From: Elusimicrobiales bacterium
GTDB taxonomy: Bacteria; Elusimicrobiota; Elusimicrobia; Elusimicrobiales; UBA9959
DNA length: 64,000 bases
Assembly (NCBI GenBank): GCA_028688015.1
Contig: JAQTZB010000003.1
Coordinates: 1-64,000 of the forward strand
Reading direction: 5' to 3'
This document shows, one piece after another, positions 30,482 through 47,360 of the stretch. Each line of letters starts with the position of its first letter. The first letter of the stretch is position 1. Below the pieces are notes generated by a model that saw nothing but the letters and a program-made list of their open reading frames with translations, made no database searches and was not told the DNA's origin. A program made the position numbers and the translations under genes.

Positions 30482-32526
30482 CTCTTGGACCTGGCCTCCA
30501 GCAGGACTTCCAGCGCGGCCTTGCGGGGATCTACCGGGCCAAGCTGCGAGCTGCGCCAGGCCAGCACGGCCGCCACGTAGGCGTCCAGTTCCGGTGTGGC
30601 CGTCTGCAGCGGATAGGTCATGCGGCGTTCGCCCAGGAAGGGGTAGGAAAGTATAGCTCCGTCTTTGCGGAGCAGCGTGATCTCGGCCTCGTCGGCGAGG
30701 TAGAGGCCGGGAGCCAGGCGCTGCCAGCCAGGCTGCACGGCGGGGGCCGGGACAGGGGCCGCGGAACCCGGAGCGGCGCGCAGGCGCTCGGCGGCCTTCA
30801 GCAGCGAGCCGCGTATCCGGCCTATGTTCCCGGCTTCCCTGGCGTTGGCGCGGATCTCGCCGGAGACGGCGGCCGCGGGGGAAGCCCAGGCCAGCCACTT
30901 GTCGTAGGCGGCCAGCGCCTTGTCGGCGGCCTGCACATGCTGCTCTACAGCTCCCAGGGAGTTCTGCACCGAGCCCGGCTCAGGCCAAAACTCGAACAGC
31001 GGCTCCGGCAGCTGCTTGTCCAGCAGGGCGAAGCTGTCCGGGCGGGCATGCAGCAGGTATTTGGTCGGACCCAGGCCGTAAAAGAGCTCTCCCTCGCGGG
31101 ACACGTAGGCGTCGTCGGCGAGGGCGAACCAGAGGCGGTCCTCTTTGACCCCGGCGGGGGCGTCGGGCGCCCGGTAGCGCAGCAGCTCCGCCGGCCGGGG
31201 CTGGCCGGACGGCGGCACCACCAGAAAAATATCGGCGGCCTGGTAGGCCGGGTGGTGGAAGGGCGAGCGCCTGTCCTGCATGAAGAAAGTGATATCCAGG
31301 TCGGCGCCGCTGCCGGAGCCGTGCGAAGAATAGCCCTTGGCGTAGGCGTTGTCCGGGTAAGCCATGTTGGCGAAGACCAGCAACGTCATCAGCACGGCGA
31401 AAATCTGCCAGGCGCGGCCGCTGTCCGGCACGGCGCCCTTCAGCAGCTCGGGCAGTTTTTCGCGCAGCAGCCTCAGGTCGGCCAGCAGGTGCGCCGGCAG
31501 GTCCTGCGCGCAGCCTTCCAGCTCGGTCAGGAAACTTTCCCAGTCCAGCCGCCGCAGGGTCTCCAGCAGCCGCCACTCCCACTCGGGTGAGAGCTGCGGC
31601 CAGCCCAGCGCGCAAACTCCGGGCAGGCCGGCCATCAGCCGCCGGACGGCTGCGGAATCGCCGAAATCGGCCAGAGCGCCGCCCTGGTGCAGCGGCGGCT
31701 CCTGCAGGTTGAGGAGGCAGAGCAGGTCTCCGGGCTTCTTAATAACGCCGCTGAGCGGCAGGCCGCGCTCCAGGCCGGCGGCGCGCAGGCGCAGCGTCTC
31801 GCGGAAAGTCTCGGCGTTCAGCCAGGAGGCCCCGCGGCCGAAGCGCAGCGCGGAGAGCTCCTCGTCGCGGACGGGCCGGCCGGAGGCCAGGAACATGCCC
31901 CAGTCGCCGTAGCCGTGGGCGCTGAAGGAAGGGATGGACACGCGCAGCGGGCGCGGGTAGAGCCGCGCAGCGGCCAGCGTGCGGTAGACGGACCAGAAAG
32001 CTGCCGGGTGGCGGTCCGGCGAGACCGCGTTCAGCGCGAATACGCCGCCGGCGGCCAGCCGCGAGCGCACGGCGGAGAAGAACGAGCGCGTGAACAGCGA
32101 GCAGCCGGCCAGGTCCTCGGGGAAAGTGAAATCGGCCAGCGCGAAGTCGTAGGCGGGGCCCTTGTAGGCCAGGTGGCGCCGGGCGTCGCGCGTATAAACC
32201 TTAGCGCGCGGATCAGCCAGGGAGCCGCCGTTATAGGGCGCGAATTCCGTACGCCCCAGCTCCAGCACGCCGGGGTCGTAGTCCACCAGGTCGGCGCTTT
32301 TCACGCGGCTGCCGGCCAGCAGGCGCTTGAGAGCCAGGCCGTCGCCGCCGCCCAGCACCAGCGCGTGCAGCGGCCGCTTGAAACGGGCCGCGGCCAGGGC
32401 CAGGGCAGGCAGGGCCAGCGCCTCGTGGTACAGGGCCTCGTCGCGGCTGTCGAACTGCAGGCTGCCGTCTATGTAGAAAGCGTGCCCGCCGGGCACTTCG
32501 CGCAATTCCAGCTTATGCCTGTTCAT
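30478..32526 (-). CDS. Spermidine synthase-like protein with C-terminal membrane and unknown domains
   Basis: 682 aa. Residues 1-240 are an aminopropyltransferase-like fold: the N-terminal beta domain includes FYIDGSLQFDSRDEALYHE, motif I is ALVLGGGDGLALKRLL, SAM-site ADLVDYDPGVLELG, and ALADFTFPED replaces the usual DxxDP catalytic loop. A helical middle precedes one hydrophobic helix (IFAVLMTLLVFANMAY, about 390). The last 280 residues are unrecognised. Aminopropyl transfer to an unusual acceptor is possible; no S-adenosylmethionine decarboxylase (speD) is nearby to make the usual donor. Start overlaps the DUF4178-like gene by 14 nt. Confidence 0.8.
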   Translation of the reverse strand: MNRHKLELREVPGGHAFYIDGSLQFDSRDEALYHEALALPALALAAARFKRPLHALVLGGGDGLALKRLLAGSRVKSADLVDYDPGVLELGRTEFAPYNGGSLADPRAKVYTRDARRHLAYKGPAYDFALADFTFPEDLAGCSLFTRSFFSAVRSRLAAGGVFALNAVSPDRHPAAFWSVYRTLAAARLYPRPLRVSIPSFSAHGYGDWGMFLASGRPVRDEELSALRFGRGASWLNAETFRETLRLRAAGLERGLPLSGVIKKPGDLLCLLNLQEPPLHQGGALADFGDSAAVRRLMAGLPGVCALGWPQLSPEWEWRLLETLRRLDWESFLTELEGCAQDLPAHLLADLRLLREKLPELLKGAVPDSGRAWQIFAVLMTLLVFANMAYPDNAYAKGYSSHGSGSGADLDITFFMQDRRSPFHHPAYQAADIFLVVPPSGQPRPAELLRYRAPDAPAGVKEDRLWFALADDAYVSREGELFYGLGPTKYLLHARPDSFALLDKQLPEPLFEFWPEPGSVQNSLGAVEQHVQAADKALAAYDKWLAWASPAAAVSGEIRANAREAGNIGRIRGSLLKAAERLRAAPGSAAPVPAPAVQPGWQRLAPGLYLADEAEITLLRKDGAILSYPFLGERRMTYPLQTATPELDAYVAAVLAWRSSQLGPVDPRKAALEVLLEARSKR

Positions 32527-33574
32527 CGGAGCCCCCCAGGAAGAAATAGCCCGCGAAGAGGACGACGGCCGGCAGCAGCGGCAGCGCGCAGGCGGCCAGC
32601 AGCCCTCCGGGGTTGTGCGGCCGGGGCGCGAACTGTATGTAGTGGGCGAAGCTGATTATGAACAGCGCCAGCAGCGCGGCCAGCCCGGCGGTCCAGGGCT
32701 TGTCCGAGCGGCGAGTACCGCCCATCAGCCGTGAGCCCAGTTCGGCGGCGGCGGCGCCCACGGCAAGGCCGTAGCCGGCGTACTGCCAGTAGGAGAGGCC
32801 CAGCCCGAGTGTCTTAAGCAGCGCGATCCCGGCCCCGATCCCGACTGCGAGCCCGGCCGCCAGCATGCCCGGGTAAGTCCCGGCGGCGTAGGCCAGGAAC
32901 GCCAGCAGGGCCGGCAGCATCAGCGCCACCAGGTACTCTGCGCCGGTGTCGAAGGCGCCCATCATACCGCCCACTATGGGCAGGAAGAACAGGCAGGAGA
33001 AACCGGCGATGACGAGCGACCCGAGCGCCTCGCCCTTGGGCAGCCCCCTGCGGGCCTTGGGCGGGATGCGGACGAAATCGGCGGGGCGCACCACCTGCCC
33101 GTCGTAGGCCTCGTAATAATCGGCGTCGGAACACTGCCAGACCTCTATGGCCAGGTTGCGCTTGCGGGTGGCGTCGTAGTAGTCCCAGGTCAGCTTGTTG
33201 ACGGTCTCTCCCTCGTCGGATTCGGCGCTGCCCTCGGTCTCGCCCTCGAGCGAGAAATCCACGCCGTCGAACTTTACCTTGGCCGGCGCCGCCTGCATGG
33301 AGTCTTTTTCGCGGAAATTTTTCCAGCCGCCGCCCTCCTGGCGCTGGACGCGGCCGATGCCGGTCTGCCGGGTGCAGACCCAGGCCACTTCGGTAGTGCC
33401 GCCCTTTTTCTCGGTGGACATCACCAGGTAGCGCGTGTCGCCGCCCCCCTCCAGTTCCCACTGCACTTCCTGGTAATCGGCGGATTCCCGATACAGGGTG
33501 CGCTCGGTTATTTCCCAATCGACAGAGCCCCAGCGCACCCAGTCGCCGGCTCTCATTTCCTGGAGGTTCGTCAT
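32513..33574 (-). CDS. DUF4178-like protein with membrane C-terminus
   Basis: 353 aa from the ATG at 33574, chosen because a TAGAAT box ends 7 nt before it. The N-terminal 170 residues (MRAGDWVRWGSVDWEITERT, then YYDATRKRNLAIEVWQC) match the pattern of DUF4178, a domain of unknown function found beside DUF350 and spermidine synthase-like genes. The C-terminal 170 residues have about five hydrophobic helices. It is the first gene of the six-gene envelope operon and has a good promoter (TTGCGC-17-TAGAAT). Confidence 0.8.
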   Translation of the reverse strand: MTNLQEMRAGDWVRWGSVDWEITERTLYRESADYQEVQWELEGGGDTRYLVMSTEKKGGTTEVAWVCTRQTGIGRVQRQEGGGWKNFREKDSMQAAPAKVKFDGVDFSLEGETEGSAESDEGETVNKLTWDYYDATRKRNLAIEVWQCSDADYYEAYDGQVVRPADFVRIPPKARRGLPKGEALGSLVIAGFSCLFFLPIVGGMMGAFDTGAEYLVALMLPALLAFLAYAAGTYPGMLAAGLAVGIGAGIALLKTLGLGLSYWQYAGYGLAVGAAAAELGSRLMGGTRRSDKPWTAGLAALLALFIISFAHYIQFAPRPHNPGGLLAACALPLLPAVVLFAGYFFLGGSDEQA

Positions 33575-33581
33575 CGGTTTT

Positions 33582-33610
33582 ATTCTAGAAATTACCGCCC
33601 GCGCGCGCAA
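33582..33610 (-). promoter_or_regulatory. Promoter of the six-gene envelope operon, leaderless
   Basis: On the minus strand TTGCGC (33610-33605), 17-nt spacer and TAGAAT (33587-33582), with only 7 nt to the ATG at 33574. No ribosome-binding site is seen. Confidence 0.65.
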
Positions 33611-33617
33611 TATAAAT

Positions 33618-33645
33618 AAAGAACCCCGGCGGGCCGGGGTTCTTT
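33618..33645 (-). terminator. Intrinsic terminator after the secreted-protein array
   Basis: 13-bp arms AAAGAACCCCGGC and GCCGGGGTTCTTT, GC core with A/T flanks. It closes the minus-strand operon 33662-39216 and separates it from the next promoter. Confidence 0.85.
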
Positions 33646-33661
33646 AGAGGGCTGCGGGGCC

Positions 33662-34228
33662 TCAGCGCAGCAGGGGCCTGAAGGAGGCCACGGCGGCCTC
33701 GTAAGCGGTGCGGTTGGCCCTGGCCACGTCGGCGGGGGCGGAATAGCGGAGCACGAAGAAGCCCTTCTTGACCGGGACCACGTAGAACTTTTCATAGATG
33801 AAGACCTTCTTGGCCTTCAGCGTCCTGGGCGGGAAATACTCAAAGGTCTTGCGCTCGAAAACCTTGGCGTAATAGTTGCCGGCGCGGCCATCGGCCACCT
33901 TGCCGTAGACCTTGCCGTCGAGGTTGGCCCCCAGCGGCGGCTTGGAATGCTGCCTTATATATTTTTCGTACGTGGGGTGCTGCAGGTTGCCTGGGGCGTA
34001 GTAGCTGACCGAGATGCGCACCGGGAACTCCCCGCCCTGCGGCGCTATGAAGTCGGCGCCGTAAACCTTCTTCTCCTGGTCGGACAGGCCGTAAGGCTCG
34101 CCCTCCCGCCGCCAACCCGCCGGCATGTTCACGGTGAAGCAGTCCCTCACGGCGTAAACCTGAGGCCCGGCGGCGGCGCAGGGGCACGGGGCCGCCAGGA
34201 GCAGGAGCAGTGATATTTTTTTCAGCAT
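33662..34228 (-). CDS. Small secreted PsbP/DUF1795-like protein S3
   Basis: 188 aa with a signal peptide (LLLLLAAPCPCAAAG). It opens with FTVNMPAGWRREGEPYGLS, continues with EEKKVYGADFIAP and ISVSYYAPGNLQH, and ends YEAVVASF-type, near-identical in layout to S1 (36771-37343) and S2 (34257-34844). The start 'F-x-P-x-GW' and end 'SF' resemble the PsbP/DUF1795 fold of small periplasmic proteins. It is the last gene of the tandem array. The ATG follows GGAGG. Function unknown; it may bind or inhibit its large partners. Confidence 0.75.
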   Translation of the reverse strand: MLKKISLLLLLAAPCPCAAAGPQVYAVRDCFTVNMPAGWRREGEPYGLSDQEKKVYGADFIAPQGGEFPVRISVSYYAPGNLQHPTYEKYIRQHSKPPLGANLDGKVYGKVADGRAGNYYAKVFERKTFEYFPPRTLKAKKVFIYEKFYVVPVKKGFFVLRYSAPADVARANRTAYEAAVASFRPLLR

Positions 34229-34256
34229 CGGGCAAAACCTCCGGCTGCGGGCCGGC

Positions 34257-34844
34257 TCACTTCAGCAGCGGCCTGAAAGAGGCGAGAAAGGCCTCGAAGA
34301 CCGGCAGGTGGTCGGCGTACTTGCCGGCGGGGGCGGAATAGCGCAGCGCGTAATAGCCCTTCTTCAGCGGGATCACGGCGAACCCTTCCCAGACCTCGGT
34401 CCCGCCGCCCAAGCTGCGGTCGGCCCCGCGCTCGTGCGTGATATTCACGAAGATCCTGGCCTTGCGACCGCCCACTTTATCGTCCTTCGCCTTTGGGGGC
34501 GCCGGCACGGCCGCGGGCGCCGCGCCTTCGGGGAGGGAATGCACCCTCATGTATTTCTCGGGGGTCTTGTCCACCAGGTTGTCGGGCGCGTAATAATGGG
34601 CCGAGATGCGCGCGCCGGCGTCCGGTCCGGCCAGTTCCACGCCGTAGACCTTCTTCTCGGCGGGACTCAGGCCATAGCCGCCGGCCGGCACCACGGTCCA
34701 GCCTTCGGGCAGGGCGGCCTCGAAATACTTACCCTCCCGGTGCACCTTGCGGTCGCCGGGGGCGGGCGTATTTCCTGCGCAGGCCGCTGAAACCGTCATG
34801 AGACAGAACATAGCATAAATAAGGATATTCCTGCGCGTCATCAC
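34257..34844 (-). CDS. Small lipoprotein S2, PsbP/DUF1795-like
   Basis: 195 aa paralog of S1 and S3. The signal ends in a lipobox-like VSAAC, so it is probably anchored to a membrane. It keeps the FEAALPEGWTVV start, YGLSPAEKKVYGVELAGP and ISAHYYAPDNLVDKTPEKYM, but the middle is diverged and has an extra Ala/Pro/Lys-rich linker. The start overlaps the stop of the large paralog L2 by 4 nt (ATGA), tying the two together. Confidence 0.75.
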   Translation of the reverse strand: MMTRRNILIYAMFCLMTVSAACAGNTPAPGDRKVHREGKYFEAALPEGWTVVPAGGYGLSPAEKKVYGVELAGPDAGARISAHYYAPDNLVDKTPEKYMRVHSLPEGAAPAAVPAPPKAKDDKVGGRKARIFVNITHERGADRSLGGGTEVWEGFAVIPLKKGYYALRYSAPAGKYADHLPVFEAFLASFRPLLK

Positions 34845-36754
34845 TCGCCTCCCGGTTCCGGCAGCAGCGAGGTCTTGAGCGTGCCCAGGACCTTGCCCTC
34901 CGGGTCTATATCGCCGCGCCAGTCCAGCAGTTTCAACTCGTCCGTTTTGGATTTGGCCAGGGTGTCCTTGTACCAGCCGAACCGCGTCTTGAGGGCCTCC
35001 CGGCCCTCCCGCAGTTCCTGCAGCTCCGCGGGCGTCATGACGGCGTCTTTCTGCTGGGCCTTCTGGGCGAGCGTGTTGACGCGCTGCGCCGTGTAAGCGG
35101 CGGCGTTGATCTGCCTGGCGGCCTCGCCGCGCATGGAGTCTATGCCGGTATAGCTGTTGCCGTGGTACTGTTTGCGCAACCCGTCCACGCCGTCTTCCAG
35201 GTAGCGCTCGGCATCGGCCCGGTCTATCTTGTCAAGCTTCTGCAGGTAGCCGGGGCCCAGCTTCTGGGTCTTCTCGGCCACGAAGGCGCCATTCATACCG
35301 AAGGCCTCCGCCTCCATCTCCATCTGGTAGGGCGAGAACTTATCCACCTTGCCGGTGGCGGGATCAGTCCAGCGCAGGAAGTTGAAGCCGCGCTGAGTGT
35401 TCCAGACGTCCTGGCGCTGGTGAGTGGTCTCATGCACGAAAGTGGGCGCCACGTAGGCCGCCAGGTCGCCCATCGCTTTCTCGTCCTTGAGCAGGTCCTC
35501 CGGGGTGATCTTTCGGTCAGCGCAGAACTTGTCCACCATCGAAGTGTTGATGCGGGTGACCTTGTCGTCGCTGCTGTACCAGCCCAGGGCGTTCTCGGTG
35601 TCGCCGGTGCCCTTCTCGAACTTAAGGTTCAGCGCGTTGCCGCCGGCCTTGGTCAGCTTCGGGTCCTCGAAAAAAGTCACCAGCTCGTCGCCGGCCTTGG
35701 TGCCGCGCATTTCGTTGGCGAGGGCGCCGGTGAATTTACCGTCCTTGACCTCGCCCATCCGGGGCCCCAGCTGCGCCGCCTGCGCGTCGGTGATAGGGAC
35801 GGGCGTGAACGCGCCCGCCTTGCCGCCCAGGCCCACGCCGTCGGCGCCGCCGGCTTCCTTGGCGTTGTCGAAGGTGCGGGCCAGGAAAGTGTCGGCCCTG
35901 CCGCCGGCCGCGGCGCCATTGAGGCGGTTGGCGGCGTCCAGCACGTCCTTGCCTTTCTTGTCGGCCGCGCTGGGGCCGGCCGGCGGGGCCTTGGCCGCCA
36001 CGCCGAGCCCTTCCAGGAACTTGTCCAGCTTGGCGATGCGCGCCTTGTCGCCGAAAGGTTCGAGGTCCTCTTTCAGGACCTGCACCAGCGGCCCGTATTC
36101 CTTGGCCGCGTCCTTGGCCTTGGCGGCCACGGCCGCGGTTTTCAGCAGGTCGTCGGCCGCGTCGCGCGCCCAGAAATAAAGGGTCTTGTAGCGGTCCGGC
36201 TTGCTGTTATCGCGGTCGGCGGGGATCAGGGCGTCCCAGGAAGCTTCGCTCTGGGTCTTGAGGCCCGTGGTCCGGATCTGCCCCAGGGCGTCCCAGCTGC
36301 GGATGCCTTTCTTAAAGGCGGCCTCGCGGCCCTGGAGATACTTGGCGACCCACGGGGTGACGGACTCCGGCTTGGGACCCAGGTTCATCTGCCGCAGCAC
36401 GCTGCGCTCCGTCAGCACGCGCGTCAGGCCGCTGGCCATCGGCATACCTTCGTATTTGACTATGATGTCGCGCAGGTCGGCCAGCGCGTTATTGCGCGCC
36501 ACCGCCTGCACGGCCAGGGTCGGGAAGTCCTGGGAAGCCTTTTCCATAAGTTCGCCGCCGCCCTCGGTAAACTGGTCGTTACACTCGTCGGCCTTGGCGG
36601 GCGAGAGGAGGTTCTTGGCCGGGTCGACGTTGTTGATACAGTCCAGCACCATCTGCGCGTCGGCCTCGGTGAGTTCCCTCGCGCCGGCGGTGAAGGGCGC
36701 GGCGGCGTAGAACGCCAGCAGCGCCGACAGCAGTAGCTTAAGTTTGGGTTTCAT
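34841..36754 (-). CDS. Large secreted HExxH protein L2 (putative metalloprotease)
   Basis: 637 aa from the ATG at 36754 (GGAG 8 nt upstream). It has a signal peptide (LLLSALLAFYAAAPFTAGA). The N-terminal half is helical and similar to L1. The C-terminal half contains APTFVHETTHQRQ (HETTH, an HExxH zinc motif) and about 35 residues later YQMEMEAEAFGMN, where a Glu could be the third zinc ligand as in gluzincins. Short Cys pairs near the N-terminus (LDCINNVDP, ADECNDQF) are shared with L1. Protease activity is inferred from the motif; no known family is recognised. Confidence 0.75.
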   Translation of the reverse strand: MKPKLKLLLSALLAFYAAAPFTAGARELTEADAQMVLDCINNVDPAKNLLSPAKADECNDQFTEGGGELMEKASQDFPTLAVQAVARNNALADLRDIIVKYEGMPMASGLTRVLTERSVLRQMNLGPKPESVTPWVAKYLQGREAAFKKGIRSWDALGQIRTTGLKTQSEASWDALIPADRDNSKPDRYKTLYFWARDAADDLLKTAAVAAKAKDAAKEYGPLVQVLKEDLEPFGDKARIAKLDKFLEGLGVAAKAPPAGPSAADKKGKDVLDAANRLNGAAAGGRADTFLARTFDNAKEAGGADGVGLGGKAGAFTPVPITDAQAAQLGPRMGEVKDGKFTGALANEMRGTKAGDELVTFFEDPKLTKAGGNALNLKFEKGTGDTENALGWYSSDDKVTRINTSMVDKFCADRKITPEDLLKDEKAMGDLAAYVAPTFVHETTHQRQDVWNTQRGFNFLRWTDPATGKVDKFSPYQMEMEAEAFGMNGAFVAEKTQKLGPGYLQKLDKIDRADAERYLEDGVDGLRKQYHGNSYTGIDSMRGEAARQINAAAYTAQRVNTLAQKAQQKDAVMTPAELQELREGREALKTRFGWYKDTLAKSKTDELKLLDWRGDIDPEGKVLGTLKTSLLPEPGGE

Positions 36755-36770
36755 AATATTCTCCGGGGAA

Positions 36771-37343
36771 CTACCGCTTGAGCGGCTTGAAAGACGCCAC
36801 CACTGCCTCATACTTCTTCAGGTTGGCCTTGGCCAGGTCCATCGGCGCGTAGTAATGCAGCACATAGAAGCCGTTCTTCACCGGCACCACGTGGAACTTC
36901 TCGTAGATGTGTATCTTCTTCGGGTGCAGCGCGTCCTTGGGCTGATACTCGAAAGTCTTGCGCTCGAACACCTTGGCGTAATAGTTGCCGGCCTTGCCGG
37001 CCTTCACAGGGCCGTAAACCTTCCCGTCCAGGTTGACGCCTATGGCCGGCGCCGCGTGCAGTTTTATGAACTTTTCCGGCGTCGCGTGCAGCAGGTTGCC
37101 GGGGGCGTAGTAATGCGCCCCCACCAGGACCGCCAGGCCGTCAGCCGCCGGGCCGAAGAACTCGGCCCCGAACACTTTCTTCTCCGCGTCGGAGAGGCCC
37201 AGGCCGGGCTCCTTCTTGGTCCACCCGTCGGGCACGGTCAGGGTGAAATATTCGCCCTCGGCGTAGAACTGCCCGGCCGGCGCCACGCCGGCGGCGGGGG
37301 CCGCGGTTAGGCACAGCGCGGCGGCCAACAATAAGTGGCTCAT
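36771..37343 (-). CDS. Small secreted PsbP/DUF1795-like protein S1
   Basis: 190 aa, signal peptide (MSHLLLAAALCLTAAPAAG). It has the same core as S2/S3: YFTLTVPDGWTKKEPGLGLS, EKKVFGAEFFGP, GAHYYAPGNLLHATPEKFI and a C-terminal YEAVVASFKPL. It lies 10 nt after L1 and 16 nt before L2, so it is co-translated with them. The GW near the start and the antiparallel-strand texture support a PsbP-like fold; role unknown. Confidence 0.75.
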   Translation of the reverse strand: MSHLLLAAALCLTAAPAAGVAPAGQFYAEGEYFTLTVPDGWTKKEPGLGLSDAEKKVFGAEFFGPAADGLAVLVGAHYYAPGNLLHATPEKFIKLHAAPAIGVNLDGKVYGPVKAGKAGNYYAKVFERKTFEYQPKDALHPKKIHIYEKFHVVPVKNGFYVLHYYAPMDLAKANLKKYEAVVASFKPLKR

Positions 37344-37353
37344 ACTTCTCCCT

Positions 37354-39216
37354 TTACAGGCTGGGCACGGCCAGCCCCGAAGCGGCGGTGCCGTACTTCT
37401 TCCTGAAAGCCAGCGCCTCTGCGTCGTTGGCGGCGTTCTCCTGGTAGATCTGCGTGTACCACTTGAAACGCGTATCCATCAGCGCGCGGTAGTCGCGCAG
37501 GTTCTGCTGCTCGGCGCGGGTCATGCCCTTGGGGTTCGTGCGCGCCTTGGTCTCCAGCGCCTGCAGCTGGGCGGCGTAGGTCTGGGCCGACTTGAACTCG
37601 CGCGCCGCGCCGCCCTCGAAGCTGTCGATGCGCGGGTACAGCGGGGCCTTCAGCGCGTCCAGGGCCTCGACGCCGCCCGCCATGTACTTCTCGGCGTTGT
37701 CGGCGTGCATCGGGTTAAAACTCTTCCAGCAGGTCGGGCCGCCGTGCTTGGAGCAGTACTCGATCATGTGCTGCGAAGACTGCGTATTGGAGAGGTTCTC
37801 CTTGGCGCGGGTGTAAGGGTCCGTGCTGTTGCCGCTGGGGAACTTGGTCATGTCTATGCCGGAGGCTATAGCGCGGGCCGTCTGGTTCTGGTGCTCGGAC
37901 TCGTGCACCATGACGGGCGAAACGTAGAGCGCGAAGTCCTTCATCGCGGCCTTGTCCTTCATCATCTGCGGCACCGTCATACCGCGCTTGGCCGCGAACT
38001 CCTCGGCGACCTCGCTGCCGATCCGCAGTTCCTTGGACGAGGCGTCCCAGTAACCAAAAGAGCCGTCCTGCCGGTTGAAGGCGAAATTAAGCTTGTTAGT
38101 GCCCGCCTTTGCGTATTTGGGGTCCTGATAGAAGGCGAGGGAGCGCTTCCCGGCCTCGGTCTCGCCCATCACGTCGGCCAGGTAGCCGGCCGGCTTGCCC
38201 TTCTCCATGCGCATCATGGATTCGCCCAGCGCTTTTTCCTCGTCGGCCGTCATCTTGACCGGCGCTACGGGCTTGACCGCCGTCCCCGTGGCCGTCCCGG
38301 TCTTGGTGCCGGAACCCGTGGCGGCGGGCTTGACCGCGGCCATAGCGCCCGCGCCGAAAGCGCCGGTGCCGTCGAAAGTCTGGTTCAGGTACTCGCCGCG
38401 CCCGTCTGGATTTATAGCGGACAGTTTGCCGCTGGCGGCGGCCAGGTCCTTGCCTTTTTTATCGGCCGTGCTGGGCTTGGGAGCTTCCTCTTTGACGCCG
38501 GCGGCGGTTGTGATGGCCTGCAGCTTGCCCAGCGAGGCGCTGTCACCCACGATCTCCAGGTCCTCGCGCAGGATGCCGGCCAGCGCGCCGATGTTGAGCT
38601 TGGCGGCGGCGCCGGGCACTTTGGAGGCGGCCTCGAGGCGGACCGTCTCGGCCTTGGCCCACTTGGCCAGCTCGCGGTAGCGGTCCAGGATATTCTGGGA
38701 ATTCCAGCCGCCTTTGTTCTTGCTGTAGGGCGCCGCGGAGAGGGAAGCGGTGCGGATTTCCCCGAGCGCATCCCAGGTGCGCACCGTCTTCTTGAACACC
38801 CCGTCCCGGGCGGAGGCGTACTTACCCACCCACTCGAAGGCCAGTTCGGGCCTGGGCCCCAGCTGCAGGTCGCAGAGGGCGCAGTCGGATTTTTCCAGCA
38901 CGCGGGTAAGGGCCAGGGCGCCGTCGGCGCTCTCCTGGCGCACCACTATCTCCTTGAGGTCCAGCAGCGCGTTGTTGTAGCCGATCATGTCGGCGGCGCC
39001 GGCCGGATTGTCCTGCGAGTATTTCTGGAGCAGGCTGGGCGCGCCCGAGTTAAGGCCCTTCACGCACTTGTCGGCGGTTTCAGGCGAGAGCAGTTTCTTG
39101 GCGGGATCTATGTTGGCGGCGCATTCGGTAACAAGCGCCTGTTCGGGCGCGCTGAGCGCCGCCAGGGCCGGGTACGCCGGCAGCGAGACTATTAAGGCTA
39201 GTAAAAGTTTTGTCAT
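37354..39216 (-). CDS. Large secreted HExxH protein L1 (putative metalloprotease)
   Basis: 620 aa with a signal peptide (LLLALIVSLPAYPALA). Paralog of L2 along most of its length: CAANIDPAKKLLSPETADKC, SWDALGEIRT-like segment, STADKKGKDLAAASGKL linker. SPVMVHESEHQNQ gives HESEH, an HExxH zinc motif. L1 has additional Cys residues (SDCALCDLQ; EYCSKHGGPTCW) and a Thr/Gly-rich linker near 300-330. The clear downstream Glu seen in L2 is not obvious. First gene of the array, with a good promoter at 39253-39281. Confidence 0.75.
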   Translation of the reverse strand: MTKLLLALIVSLPAYPALAALSAPEQALVTECAANIDPAKKLLSPETADKCVKGLNSGAPSLLQKYSQDNPAGAADMIGYNNALLDLKEIVVRQESADGALALTRVLEKSDCALCDLQLGPRPELAFEWVGKYASARDGVFKKTVRTWDALGEIRTASLSAAPYSKNKGGWNSQNILDRYRELAKWAKAETVRLEAASKVPGAAAKLNIGALAGILREDLEIVGDSASLGKLQAITTAAGVKEEAPKPSTADKKGKDLAAASGKLSAINPDGRGEYLNQTFDGTGAFGAGAMAAVKPAATGSGTKTGTATGTAVKPVAPVKMTADEEKALGESMMRMEKGKPAGYLADVMGETEAGKRSLAFYQDPKYAKAGTNKLNFAFNRQDGSFGYWDASSKELRIGSEVAEEFAAKRGMTVPQMMKDKAAMKDFALYVSPVMVHESEHQNQTARAIASGIDMTKFPSGNSTDPYTRAKENLSNTQSSQHMIEYCSKHGGPTCWKSFNPMHADNAEKYMAGGVEALDALKAPLYPRIDSFEGGAAREFKSAQTYAAQLQALETKARTNPKGMTRAEQQNLRDYRALMDTRFKWYTQIYQENAANDAEALAFRKKYGTAASGLAVPSL

Positions 39217-39252: not shown

Positions 39253-39281
39253 AGTGTAATAAGACGGTTGATTATTGTCAA
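39253..39281 (-). promoter_or_regulatory. Sigma70-like promoter of the secreted-protein array
   Basis: TTGACA (39281-39276), 17-nt spacer and TACACT (39258-39253) on the minus strand. Unlike the leaderless genes there is a leader of about 30 nt with GAGAGGG before the L1 ATG. Confidence 0.8.
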
Positions 39282-39340: not shown

Positions 39341-40582
39341 TTAGTCCGCGGGCCCCAGGGTATTGATGGCGGCGCCCATCAGGTCGAAGAACTTCTTCTC
39401 GTCGAGGGTGTCCGCCTCGTCGTTCCAGGAGGCGGACAGGCAGTACCATTCGGACTTCCTGTTCTTCAGCAGCCAGGTCGCCGAGATCACACCCGGCTCC
39501 GAACCGCCCTTGAATCCGGCGTAGAGAAAGGCCCCCTCCTGGACGCCGCCGGTATTCAGCGCCATCAGTTCCAGGGCCGTCGCGCCGCCCTCTCTTTCCA
39601 AATACTGCATGAGACCGCAGAGGTCGGCCGGGGAGGCGAACCACTCCACCTTGTCCAAACCGAAGGGACTGCGGGTGAACTTTTCAATTTCCAGCGGCTG
39701 CCTGGCCAGGCTGTCGAGGAAGGAGTATTTCTCCGCGGCGGGCAGGTTCAGGTACTTGAGCGCGGTCCCGGTGCCGGACTTGAGCTTGACCATTTCCGTG
39801 GTTTTCAGGAAGGGTTTAAGCCTTGAGGGATCGGAATGGCCGAGCGCGGCCAGGGCCCCCTCTATCTTCCGCCGCCCGAGGCGGTCTATCAGCAGGTCCG
39901 CGGCCGTGTTGTCGCTCTCCGAGATCATCAGCGCTGCCAGCGTATGGGCGGTCAGGGGAGAATCCTCCGGCCAGTCCTGCAGGCGGCCGGACGGCATGGA
40001 GCGGTCCCCGTCGCGGAGATAAAAAACCTTGTCCCAGGGAGTTTTCAAACGCGCCATGGCCGCCAGCACGTAAAGTTTGAAGGCAGAACCGACCGCGAAG
40101 TAGTCGGCGGCGGCCAGCTCCTCCAGGTTCTCGGGGGTTTCCCCCAGCCGCCGCACCAGCAGGCCCTTGCGGCCGGGCAGCGCCGCAAAGGTGTCGCGCA
40201 AGCCGCGCAGCGTAACGTCCCTCCTATACGCGTGCCGGAAGAACAGGCGGATTATCTTCCCGGTCTCCGGATCCGCGGAGACCGCCAGCGGCACCCGCCA
40301 GCCGCCTGTCGTGTCGAAATAATAGTGGCCGGAATAGGCGGACGAGCTGACAAGCACCGTTCTTTCCACGGCCCCGTGCTCTTTATACAGCCCCGAGAAG
40401 ATCCCGGACAGCTTAGACAGGGAAACCTGCCGGAAAAAGCTCCCGTCGAACAGTTTCTCCAGGCCGCCGGGCTCCGCGGCCACCTGCCGGGCCGCACTCT
40501 CCGCGGCCCGGTCCGCTACGCCCGCCGTTGCCGGCACTGAGAAGAGCAGGACGGGCAGAACGAGCCCGGGTAAAATTTTCAT
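39341..40582 (-). CDS. Secreted class A beta-lactamase-like serine hydrolase
   Basis: 413 aa from the ATG at 40582 (a TTG 5 codons upstream is less likely, because a TATAAT box lies between). Signal peptide (LPGLVLPVLLFSVPATAG). Motifs of the penicillin-binding/beta-lactamase fold: GSAFKLYVLAAM (SxxK), MISESDNTAADLL (SDN) and YAGFKGGSEPGV (KGG in place of KTG). An extra 130-residue N-terminal part is unassigned. It may act on peptidoglycan or esters rather than confer resistance. Divergent from the crotonase gene. Confidence 0.82.
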   Translation of the reverse strand: MKILPGLVLPVLLFSVPATAGVADRAAESAARQVAAEPGGLEKLFDGSFFRQVSLSKLSGIFSGLYKEHGAVERTVLVSSSAYSGHYYFDTTGGWRVPLAVSADPETGKIIRLFFRHAYRRDVTLRGLRDTFAALPGRKGLLVRRLGETPENLEELAAADYFAVGSAFKLYVLAAMARLKTPWDKVFYLRDGDRSMPSGRLQDWPEDSPLTAHTLAALMISESDNTAADLLIDRLGRRKIEGALAALGHSDPSRLKPFLKTTEMVKLKSGTGTALKYLNLPAAEKYSFLDSLARQPLEIEKFTRSPFGLDKVEWFASPADLCGLMQYLEREGGATALELMALNTGGVQEGAFLYAGFKGGSEPGVISATWLLKNRKSEWYCLSASWNDEADTLDEKKFFDLMGAAINTLGPAD

Positions 40583-40588
40583 TTTAAA

Positions 40589-40594
40589 ATTATA
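40589..40594 (-). promoter_or_regulatory. -10 box for leaderless serine-hydrolase mRNA
   Basis: Perfect TATAAT on the minus strand ending 6 nt before the ATG at 40582. No ribosome-binding site between them. Confidence 0.65.
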
Positions 40595-40632
40595 CAATTA
40601 GTCCTGCGGCAATTCCGCGCGGAGGAAACAAC

Positions 40633-45998: not shown

Positions 45999-47360
45999 TT
46001 ACTTCGCGCCGTAGAGGAAGGTCACGAAGTCGTGCCACTTGGTCGCCTTGTCGAAGGCGAAGTTGGTATAGGGCGCCTCGAAGATGCCCTCCAGCTTCTC
46101 CTGCGGTATGCGCGTCTCCGCGGGCGGCAGGTACACCGAAACGCCGTGGCTCTCGGCCATCTCGTGGTTGGCGCGGTTCTTGCCGGTGGCCTTGTTATAG
46201 ATCACCAGTTCCTTGTCGATGTACTCCTGCAGCGCGGCCGCCTTGGCCTTCAGGTCGGCGGCCTTGGCGTGCGGCTTCAGGCCGTCGGCGACCAGCTTGG
46301 AGTACTGCCAAACGTCGCCGTAGAACGAGATGGTCATCGCCGGGTCCGACCCCGCGCCCACCGCGTCGTAGCGGATCACGCCGTTGCGCGCCGCCTTCAG
46401 CGCGTCCACGTCATTGACCTCTTTGGCCAGCGCGGCGAACTCGGCCATCTTGGTCCCGAGACCCGCAACTTTGTTAGCGCGCATCGCCGAGAGCTGCACG
46501 TTCTTGTTGCCCTTCTCATAGAACAGTTTGAAGGCTTCCACCATCAGCGCGCCGGTCTCTTCGGTGCTCATCGCCGGCTTCTTGGCGATGGCGCCGAGGA
46601 ACAGGTCGTACGGGTAGCCCAGGCCGGGCACCGTCTCTTCCGAGCCCACGATAACCTGCGCCTGGTCCTTAACTTCGTAGGCCACCTCGGCCATGTTCAT
46701 CAGGCAGGCGTCGAAGGCCAGGATGTCCACCTTGCCGGCCTCCTGCAGGATCTTGCCGATCTGCGCCGTGCGGATGTAGTTGCCGGTCTCGTCATCGAAG
46801 GAGATGCCCTTGCTCTCCATGCGCGGGTCCATCCAGCCCGTGCCGTGGTTCCAGATGATGAGCATGTAGCGCTTGGCCGGGAAGCGCTGTTTGGACCACT
46901 TCACGAAGTCCACCGCGCGCTTGTAGTCGCCCATGTCCACGACCTTGTCCTCCTGCAGGACGGTCGAGGTGATCTTGTTCTCGTTCTTGTCCTTCTTGAT
47001 CAGCATGCGGCGCGCGCCGGTCCAGTCGCCGTCCAGGTCGGTGTCGCCGCCGGCCTGGCCCTTCATGCGGCCCTGCTCCACGACGATGTTGAGATCCTTG
47101 GTGGACCCGACCTTCTCCATCATGTTGACGTTGTAAAGGCCGGCCAGTTCCAGGTCGTTCTTGCCGTTGATAAAGACCATGACGGTCCATTCCTTGACGG
47201 CCGCCGGGGCGTCGCCGCCTCTGGCCGCGGCTACCTGCGCCGGCGCGGAAGCGGCCGGGGCGGTGCGGGCGGTGCGGCTGTCCAGGTTCAGCGCGGTGTC
47301 CGCCGCGAAGACCGGGGTCAGCAGCCCGAAGACCGCGAGTATCGCTAACGATTTTTTCAT
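45999..47360 (-). CDS. Secreted clostripain-family (C11) cysteine protease
   Basis: 453 aa with a signal peptide (SLAILAVFGLLTPVFA). KEWTVMVFINGKNDLE opens the C11 domain. The catalytic His is in MLIIWNHGTGW and the catalytic Cys in ILAFDACLMNMAEVAYEV, both in the expected order. C11 proteases cleave after Arg or Lys and are often exported. A Thr/Ala/Pro-rich spacer follows the signal peptide. Single gene with its own promoter (47389-47416) and terminator. Confidence 0.9.
   Translation of the reverse strand: MKKSLAILAVFGLLTPVFAADTALNLDSRTARTAPAASAPAQVAAARGGDAPAAVKEWTVMVFINGKNDLELAGLYNVNMMEKVGSTKDLNIVVEQGRMKGQAGGDTDLDGDWTGARRMLIKKDKNENKITSTVLQEDKVVDMGDYKRAVDFVKWSKQRFPAKRYMLIIWNHGTGWMDPRMESKGISFDDETGNYIRTAQIGKILQEAGKVDILAFDACLMNMAEVAYEVKDQAQVIVGSEETVPGLGYPYDLFLGAIAKKPAMSTEETGALMVEAFKLFYEKGNKNVQLSAMRANKVAGLGTKMAEFAALAKEVNDVDALKAARNGVIRYDAVGAGSDPAMTISFYGDVWQYSKLVADGLKPHAKAADLKAKAAALQEYIDKELVIYNKATGKNRANHEMAESHGVSVYLPPAETRIPQEKLEGIFEAPYTNFAFDKATKWHDFVTFLYGAK

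Follow-up and report, generated by a model that had tools for sequence, protein, structure and literature searches.

Tandem pairs of apparently exported HExxH proteins and predicted PsbP-fold partners in an Elusimicrobiales genome, and a related form of the locus behind C11 peptidase genes

The window analysed here, the first 64,000 nucleotides (nt) of contig JAQTZB010000003.1 in the 3.34 Mb, 58-contig genome of an Elusimicrobiales bacterium (GCA_028688015.1), carries on its minus strand a close-packed array of five genes, L1-S1-L2-S2-S3, at positions 33662-39216 (Table 1). An earlier note, made from the letters alone, had described this array as two large paralogs with HESEH and HETTH motifs alternating with small proteins of a single family, closely spaced under one promoter and one terminator, and the description holds. 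Five open reading frames (ORFs) lie in that order, with 10 nt between L1 and S1, 16 nt between S1 and L2, an L2 stop and S2 start that overlap as TGATG, and 28 nt between S2 and S3; L1 and L2 are paralogs with 34% identity over 611 columns (E 4e-95), both motifs were located, and S1 shares 39% identity with S2 and 56% with S3. One promoter-like site stands before L1 and a strong terminator follows S3. Between 32000 and 41000 there are four promoter-like sites where 0.9 are expected by chance and ten terminator-like sites where 8.7 are expected, and as the latter count is near chance the terminator call rests on its long stem. All five genes are under purifying selection relative to the nearest relative, G025, with ratios of nonsynonymous to synonymous substitution (dN/dS) of 0.19 for L1, 0.13 for S1, 0.24 for L2, 0.18 for S2 and 0.06 for S3. 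The N-termini of the array proteins resemble signal peptides when read by eye, which suggests that both L and S are exported.

Table 1. Genes, motifs and putative signals of the array (positions in the window).
Feature	Coordinates	Strand	Description	Basis
L1	37354-39216	-	620 amino acids, apparently exported HExxH protein	ORF, paralogy with L2, motif intact
S1	36771-37343	-	190 amino acids, predicted PsbP-fold partner	ORF, structure model and fold search
L2	34841-36754	-	637 amino acids, apparently exported HExxH protein (ATG form; a longer ORF begins at 36811)	ORF, structure model
S2	34257-34841	-	Predicted PsbP-fold partner	ORF, homology
S3	33662-34228	-	Second S after L2	ORF
HESEH of L1	37891-37905	-		Motif match
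HETTH of L2	35420-35434	-	H441, E442, H445	Motif match
Candidate third zinc ligand of L1	37798-37800	-	Glu of RAKENLS	Alignment column; position counted by hand
Candidate third zinc ligand of L2	35312-35314	-	E481	Alignment conservation
Candidate catalytic Tyr of L2	35150-35152	-	Tyr535	Conservation among intact L
Sigma-70-like promoter	39253-39281	-	TTGACA-17-TACACT, before L1	Sequence pattern
Intrinsic terminator	33617-33646	-	13-pair stem and T tail, after S3	Sequence pattern

L and S are a linked, co-inherited pair. Single-sequence searches find five L and six S genes in the window's genome, spread over the window and three other places, with every L adjoined by an S (the S profile has seven matches in this genome); among 150 relatives the same kind of search places L in 56 genomes, S in 59 and both in 55, with a same-strand S no more than 2.5 kb away at 89 of 98 L places and L upstream at 94 of 109 S places. 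At least five of the unpaired L or S places sit at contig ends. Among the matches listed, both genes are present in all 59 genomes labelled as belonging to the window's family (f1), and profiles run over 340 genomes of the phylum find L in 86 and S in 121. In the fetched regions, once duplicates or fragments (L063, L073, L129, L068 and L108) had been removed, S stands directly downstream of 97 of the 104 L genes that have at least 700 nt of downstream sequence. The distances among L proteins and among S proteins correlate with an r of 0.845 over 84 L-S pairs (the outgroup loci L208-L227 being left out), and not one of 1000 shuffles of S within the 24 genomes that hold more than one pair reaches this value (mean 0.20, maximum 0.56). 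L and S overlap by exactly 4 nt in 33 of the 84 pairs, and the L-S-S order of L2-S2-S3 recurs at four loci (L135, L142, L143 and L144). The earlier note had taken the duplicated pairs to be a functional two-part system and had proposed looking for linkage in other genomes; linkage is what was found there, and together with the outcome of the shuffles it speaks for such a system.

The HExxH codon pattern alone is common, with 161 matches per strand across the genome as against 99 and 97 in a reversed control, and it is meaningful in L1 and L2 because it is conserved in their relatives. Both proteins carry an intact HExxHxxQ, a distal Glu and the Tyr. The four motif residues, His-Glu-His of HExxH and the distal Glu, are intact in 70 of 110 L rows of the alignment and altered in the other 40. 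The first His is gone in 39 of these 40 degenerate rows, in 31 of which it is the only residue lost and is replaced by Tyr, Arg or Glu; two residues are lost in three rows, three in two and all four in four. In the numbering of L2, Glu442 is still present in 34 degenerate rows, His445 in 32 and Glu481 in 34, and since three of the four motif residues thus remain in most rows, metal binding by degenerate L is possible. Tyr535 played no part in defining the two classes; 69 of 70 intact L have it, as do 10 of 39 degenerate L, and in the other degenerate rows it has mostly become Phe or Cys. W135, W173, R188, L291, F295 and G355, in contrast, are kept in all 40 degenerate rows, D296 in 39, A55 in 35 and Q448 in 34 (Q448 is present in 66 of 70 intact rows). 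Because these structural residues stay, the loss amounts to a selective release of the first His and the Tyr, and degenerate L looks like a protein with a decaying or altered active site. It goes furthest in one tree group (L110, L115, L116, L120, L122 and L123), whose six members have lost three or four motif residues, the distal Glu among them in every case. In three pairs degenerate L shows dN/dS of 0.05-0.23, a sign of continued purifying selection; most degenerate rows form one clade, and the counts given here are of events that are not independent.

Another, widespread form of the locus, in which L-S stands behind a gene for a C11 (clostripain-family) peptidase, is new here. One conserved gene of 422-516 amino acids (309 where it is cut) lies directly before L in 35 of 37 loci of this form, and at the remaining two at most 470 nt of contig lie before L. 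Genes directly before L in loci L155 and L187 match Pfam PF03415 (Peptidase C11) above cut-off, at 127 and 145 bits; the third C11 gene tested against Pfam, in L185, does not adjoin L. The profile of the C11 group matched 55 proteins, three of them not adjoining L, of which 54 have the Cys pattern (D[AST]CxM) and 53 the His pattern (NHGxG). Across 51 tree rows, the end of the C11 gene falls anywhere from 134 nt inside the listed L start to 12 nt before it, and in L123 (2209-5787, plus strand) C11 and L are fused in one protein of 1192 amino acids; an open frame of similar length, 1177 amino acids, lies at the L match of genome G040. L128 (1071-7773, plus strand) reads C11-L-S-L-S, the L of its second pair being degenerate with the first and second His changed. 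A motif search for related loci, both motifs of which derive from the C11-linked branch, gave 37 loci, 32 labelled Elusimicrobia, Elusimicrobiota or Elusimicrobiales and five labelled only 'bacterium'; relatives in other phyla are possible.

Among scorable rows, altered motifs are confined to loci with a C11 gene. Among the 40 degenerate rows, 37 have C11 (one as the fusion), three are not scorable and none lacks it, whereas the 70 intact rows divide into 15 with C11, 53 without and two not scorable (L123 was set by hand as having C11 and the second L of L128 as not scorable). Thus every one of the 53 L rows scored as being without an upstream C11 gene is intact, including 15 that belong to other families of the class, and the reading of HExxH as a conserved metallopeptidase-like site is supported. 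On a tree of the 110 rows, built by a quick method with the motif columns left out, C11 presence changes once, on a branch with a support of only 68, and degeneracy changes twice. With only two changes, an association of C11 with the loss of the motif lacks statistical support, and the link is for this reason a pattern and not a statistic. The L-S pairs of the window have no C11 gene in front. The same contig carries a C11-L-S operon at about 202.3-206.1 kb in which the L motif reads YEAAH, and the nearest relative, G025, has a C11-L-S operon too. The window itself encodes a C11 clostripain-family protein of 453 amino acids at 45999-47360 on the minus strand (profile E 2.9e-121), with no L or S among the adjoining ORFs.

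The earlier note knew of no described family with this layout, and L1 and L2 indeed have no match above cut-off in Pfam or NCBIfam. Matches among 30 L members are weak or single. Seven have weak matches to DUF4344, a putative metallopeptidase family (best E 0.0047); the one in L102 spans residues 332-402, HExxH included, and at 17.2 bits falls below the cut-off of 29.6, while none is listed for L1 or L2. Two further Pfam matches each occur in a single member, to GBP_C (E 0.0036) and to DUF3969 (E 3.9e-5), the latter a family of unknown function. Foldseek returned no match under E 0.001 for the whole L2 model, and neither a PDB sequence-profile search with L nor tblastn of L2 against plasmids gave any. 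L proteins mostly have 570-660 amino acids, and the L2 model suggests a helical N-terminal part (about 30-250) joined to an HExxHxxQ...E domain (about 320-530) by a flexible linker (about 255-320). Short-form relatives at L224 (2959-4230, minus strand) and L225 (3519-4787, plus strand) have 422-423 amino acids with HELVH...E, the HExxH near residue 126, and neither the long N-terminal part nor an S; partial matches of the same kind, in frames of 423-450 amino acids, occur in ten other genomes of the genus. Since both features are missing together, these two loci suggest that S deals with the long N-terminal part of L, an idea weakened by the fact that of the seven L without S (the two short forms, L113, L079, L223 and two in L222) five are long.

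S is predicted to have the PsbP/Mog1 fold. The structural matches of its model include PsbP, LpqN, Tsi3, TplEi, EagT6 and DcrB, at about 7-15% identity. Among 37 S, nine show similarity to the Pfam PsbP profile (best E 2.4e-4) and two to PsbP_2 (best E 4.6e-5); S1-S3 themselves show none. With S, a PDB sequence-profile search found a PsbP chain among five matches, all at E 0.05-0.27. The reading of the small proteins as PsbP-like is supported by the fold search. By eye, the S proteins of L157, L158 and L163 have a lipobox-like LSGC or LCGC at the end of the signal peptide and may be lipoproteins.

The reading that we favour, at a probability of about 0.55, is that L and S are an exported zinc metallopeptidase and its dedicated binding partner, and that a relative of this pair has come to accompany a cysteine peptidase, probably without catalysis of its own. 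L would be a member of a gluzincin-like family without description, with a candidate catalytic Tyr; S, exported and made from the next cistron, would bind L, perhaps via its long N-terminal part, and would help it to fold, hold it inactive or place it. S may be any of the three things that the earlier note had named, an inhibitor, a chaperone or a substrate-binding partner of L. The window would then hold two copies of the motif-intact pair, L1 with S1 and L2 with S2 and S3. Because the first His and the Tyr are frequently missing from L in the C11 form, L-S there is probably a weakly catalytic or non-catalytic companion of the cysteine peptidase; the pairs of the window may also have some link to a C11 enzyme. 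It is tempting to go further and imagine a three-part exported complex made up of a C11 cysteine peptidase, a zincin-like L and a PsbP-fold S. In this picture a caspase-like peptidase took over an ancestral pair of active metallopeptidase and partner, and the metallopeptidase became a scaffold or regulator whose active site is damaged or gone, while active copies of the pair, such as those of the window, went on duplicating beside it. We think this extension less likely than not, and a little less likely still because 31 of the 40 degenerate L have lost only the first His.

Two observations speak for rival readings. In 40 of 110 L the motif is altered but the remainder of the protein is kept, so that the conservation of HExxH in homologues, whose lack would by the earlier note refute its idea, stands for 70 of the 110 and fails for the others; and S-profile matches occur also without L, in 121 genomes with S as against 86 with L among the 340. 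The former, with the large helical N-terminal part of the L model, would suit a structural envelope complex in which the HExxH set is non-catalytic in every member, but we think this unlikely, as no scored copy without C11 has lost any of the four residues and as Tyr535, unlike the structural residues, disappears along with the first His, which is the behaviour expected of catalytic residues. The latter would suit an S that is functionally unrelated to L and merely shares its promoter, for which the 97 of 104 linkage and the within-genome specificity of the L-S distances leave a very slim chance.

The order of L then S with a small adjacent partner, the expansion of both into paralogs, and the PsbP-fold immunity proteins Tsi3 and TplEi and chaperone EagT6 among the structural matches of S would also fit an exported antibacterial peptidase with its immunity protein or adaptor, the tandem copies being an arsenal. 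Likewise, zincin-type toxin domains are described in polymorphic toxins, and PsbP/MOG1-like genes beside toxin genes of the type VI secretion system (T6SS) are proposed as adaptors (PMC3482391). Such a toxin pair is nonetheless improbable given the presence of L and S in all 59 genomes of the family, among the matches listed, the low dN/dS of the array genes, the fact that neither L1 nor L2 matches a delivery domain above cut-off, and the retention of degenerate copies under constraint together with their S. L is widespread and has conserved columns over its full length, though it may still have the variable end, with lineage-specific immunity genes, that marks a toxin module. Very improbable, too, is that L is an alpha-ketoglutarate-dependent HExxH oxygenase that acts on peptides: the NCBIfam model mod_HExxH (TIGR04267) matches none of 61 genomes, the window's included, and is absent from the matches of the 30 L. 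Ketoglutarate and Fe(II) are normally cytosolic whereas L looks exported, and the C11 and PsbP-fold neighbours do not point to the tailoring of ribosomally synthesised and post-translationally modified peptides.

Gluzincins and minigluzincins are zinc peptidases, selecase being an example, with which L has only a marginal similarity in fold score; L differs in its length, its helical N-terminal part, its apparent export and its nearly constant S. DUF4344 resembles it through weak matches in seven of 30 L and differs in a score that stays below cut-off. L2 and most relatives share the HExxHxxQ-E signature of the PVC metallopeptidase of polymorphic toxins, as given in PMC3482391. L differs from that enzyme in having a dedicated PsbP-fold partner, and no toxin domain was recognised in L1 or L2. 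In a Pfam search of 30 L at E up to 0.1, no model of the PVC metallopeptidase family, presumably DUF4157, was named. What sets S apart from PsbP, LpqN, Tsi3, EagT6 and DcrB is that it is encoded with an HExxH protein. The C11 peptidases fragipain and DpnB activate exported proteins, DpnB activating two-component toxins, and in the C11 form L is likewise preceded by the gene of a clear C11 member; unlike that form, no HExxH or PsbP-fold protein is described in an operon with a C11 gene in the portions of the source available (PMC11169675), and the pairs of the window differ again in having no C11 gene. DpnB and the T6SS PsbP/MOG1-like adaptors offer parallels, as analogies, for the roles of C11 and S. 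We found no description of an L-S or C11-L-S module in the open-licence PMC literature, including the accessible parts of PMC3482391 and PMC11495043, and rate L as new: an apparently exported, zincin-type family without a name that has an almost obligate PsbP-fold partner. This defines a peptidase-like family in a natural series that may lead from a motif-intact metallopeptidase to a degenerate copy beside a clostripain-type peptidase, and it opens to testing both the way in which proteases come by their partners and the role of PsbP-fold proteins beyond photosynthesis.

Directly upstream of L1, at 39341-40597 on the minus strand, lies a gene for a serine beta-lactamase-like protein (Pfam Beta-lactamase2, E 2.9e-14). 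It was considered as a counterpart of the C11 gene and discarded when BLAST against ten C11 proteins gave no match; a homologue is found upstream of L in eight other loci. Downstream of the array, also on the minus strand, a DUF4178 protein is encoded at 32513-33610, followed by a gene that by eye resembles spermidine synthase.

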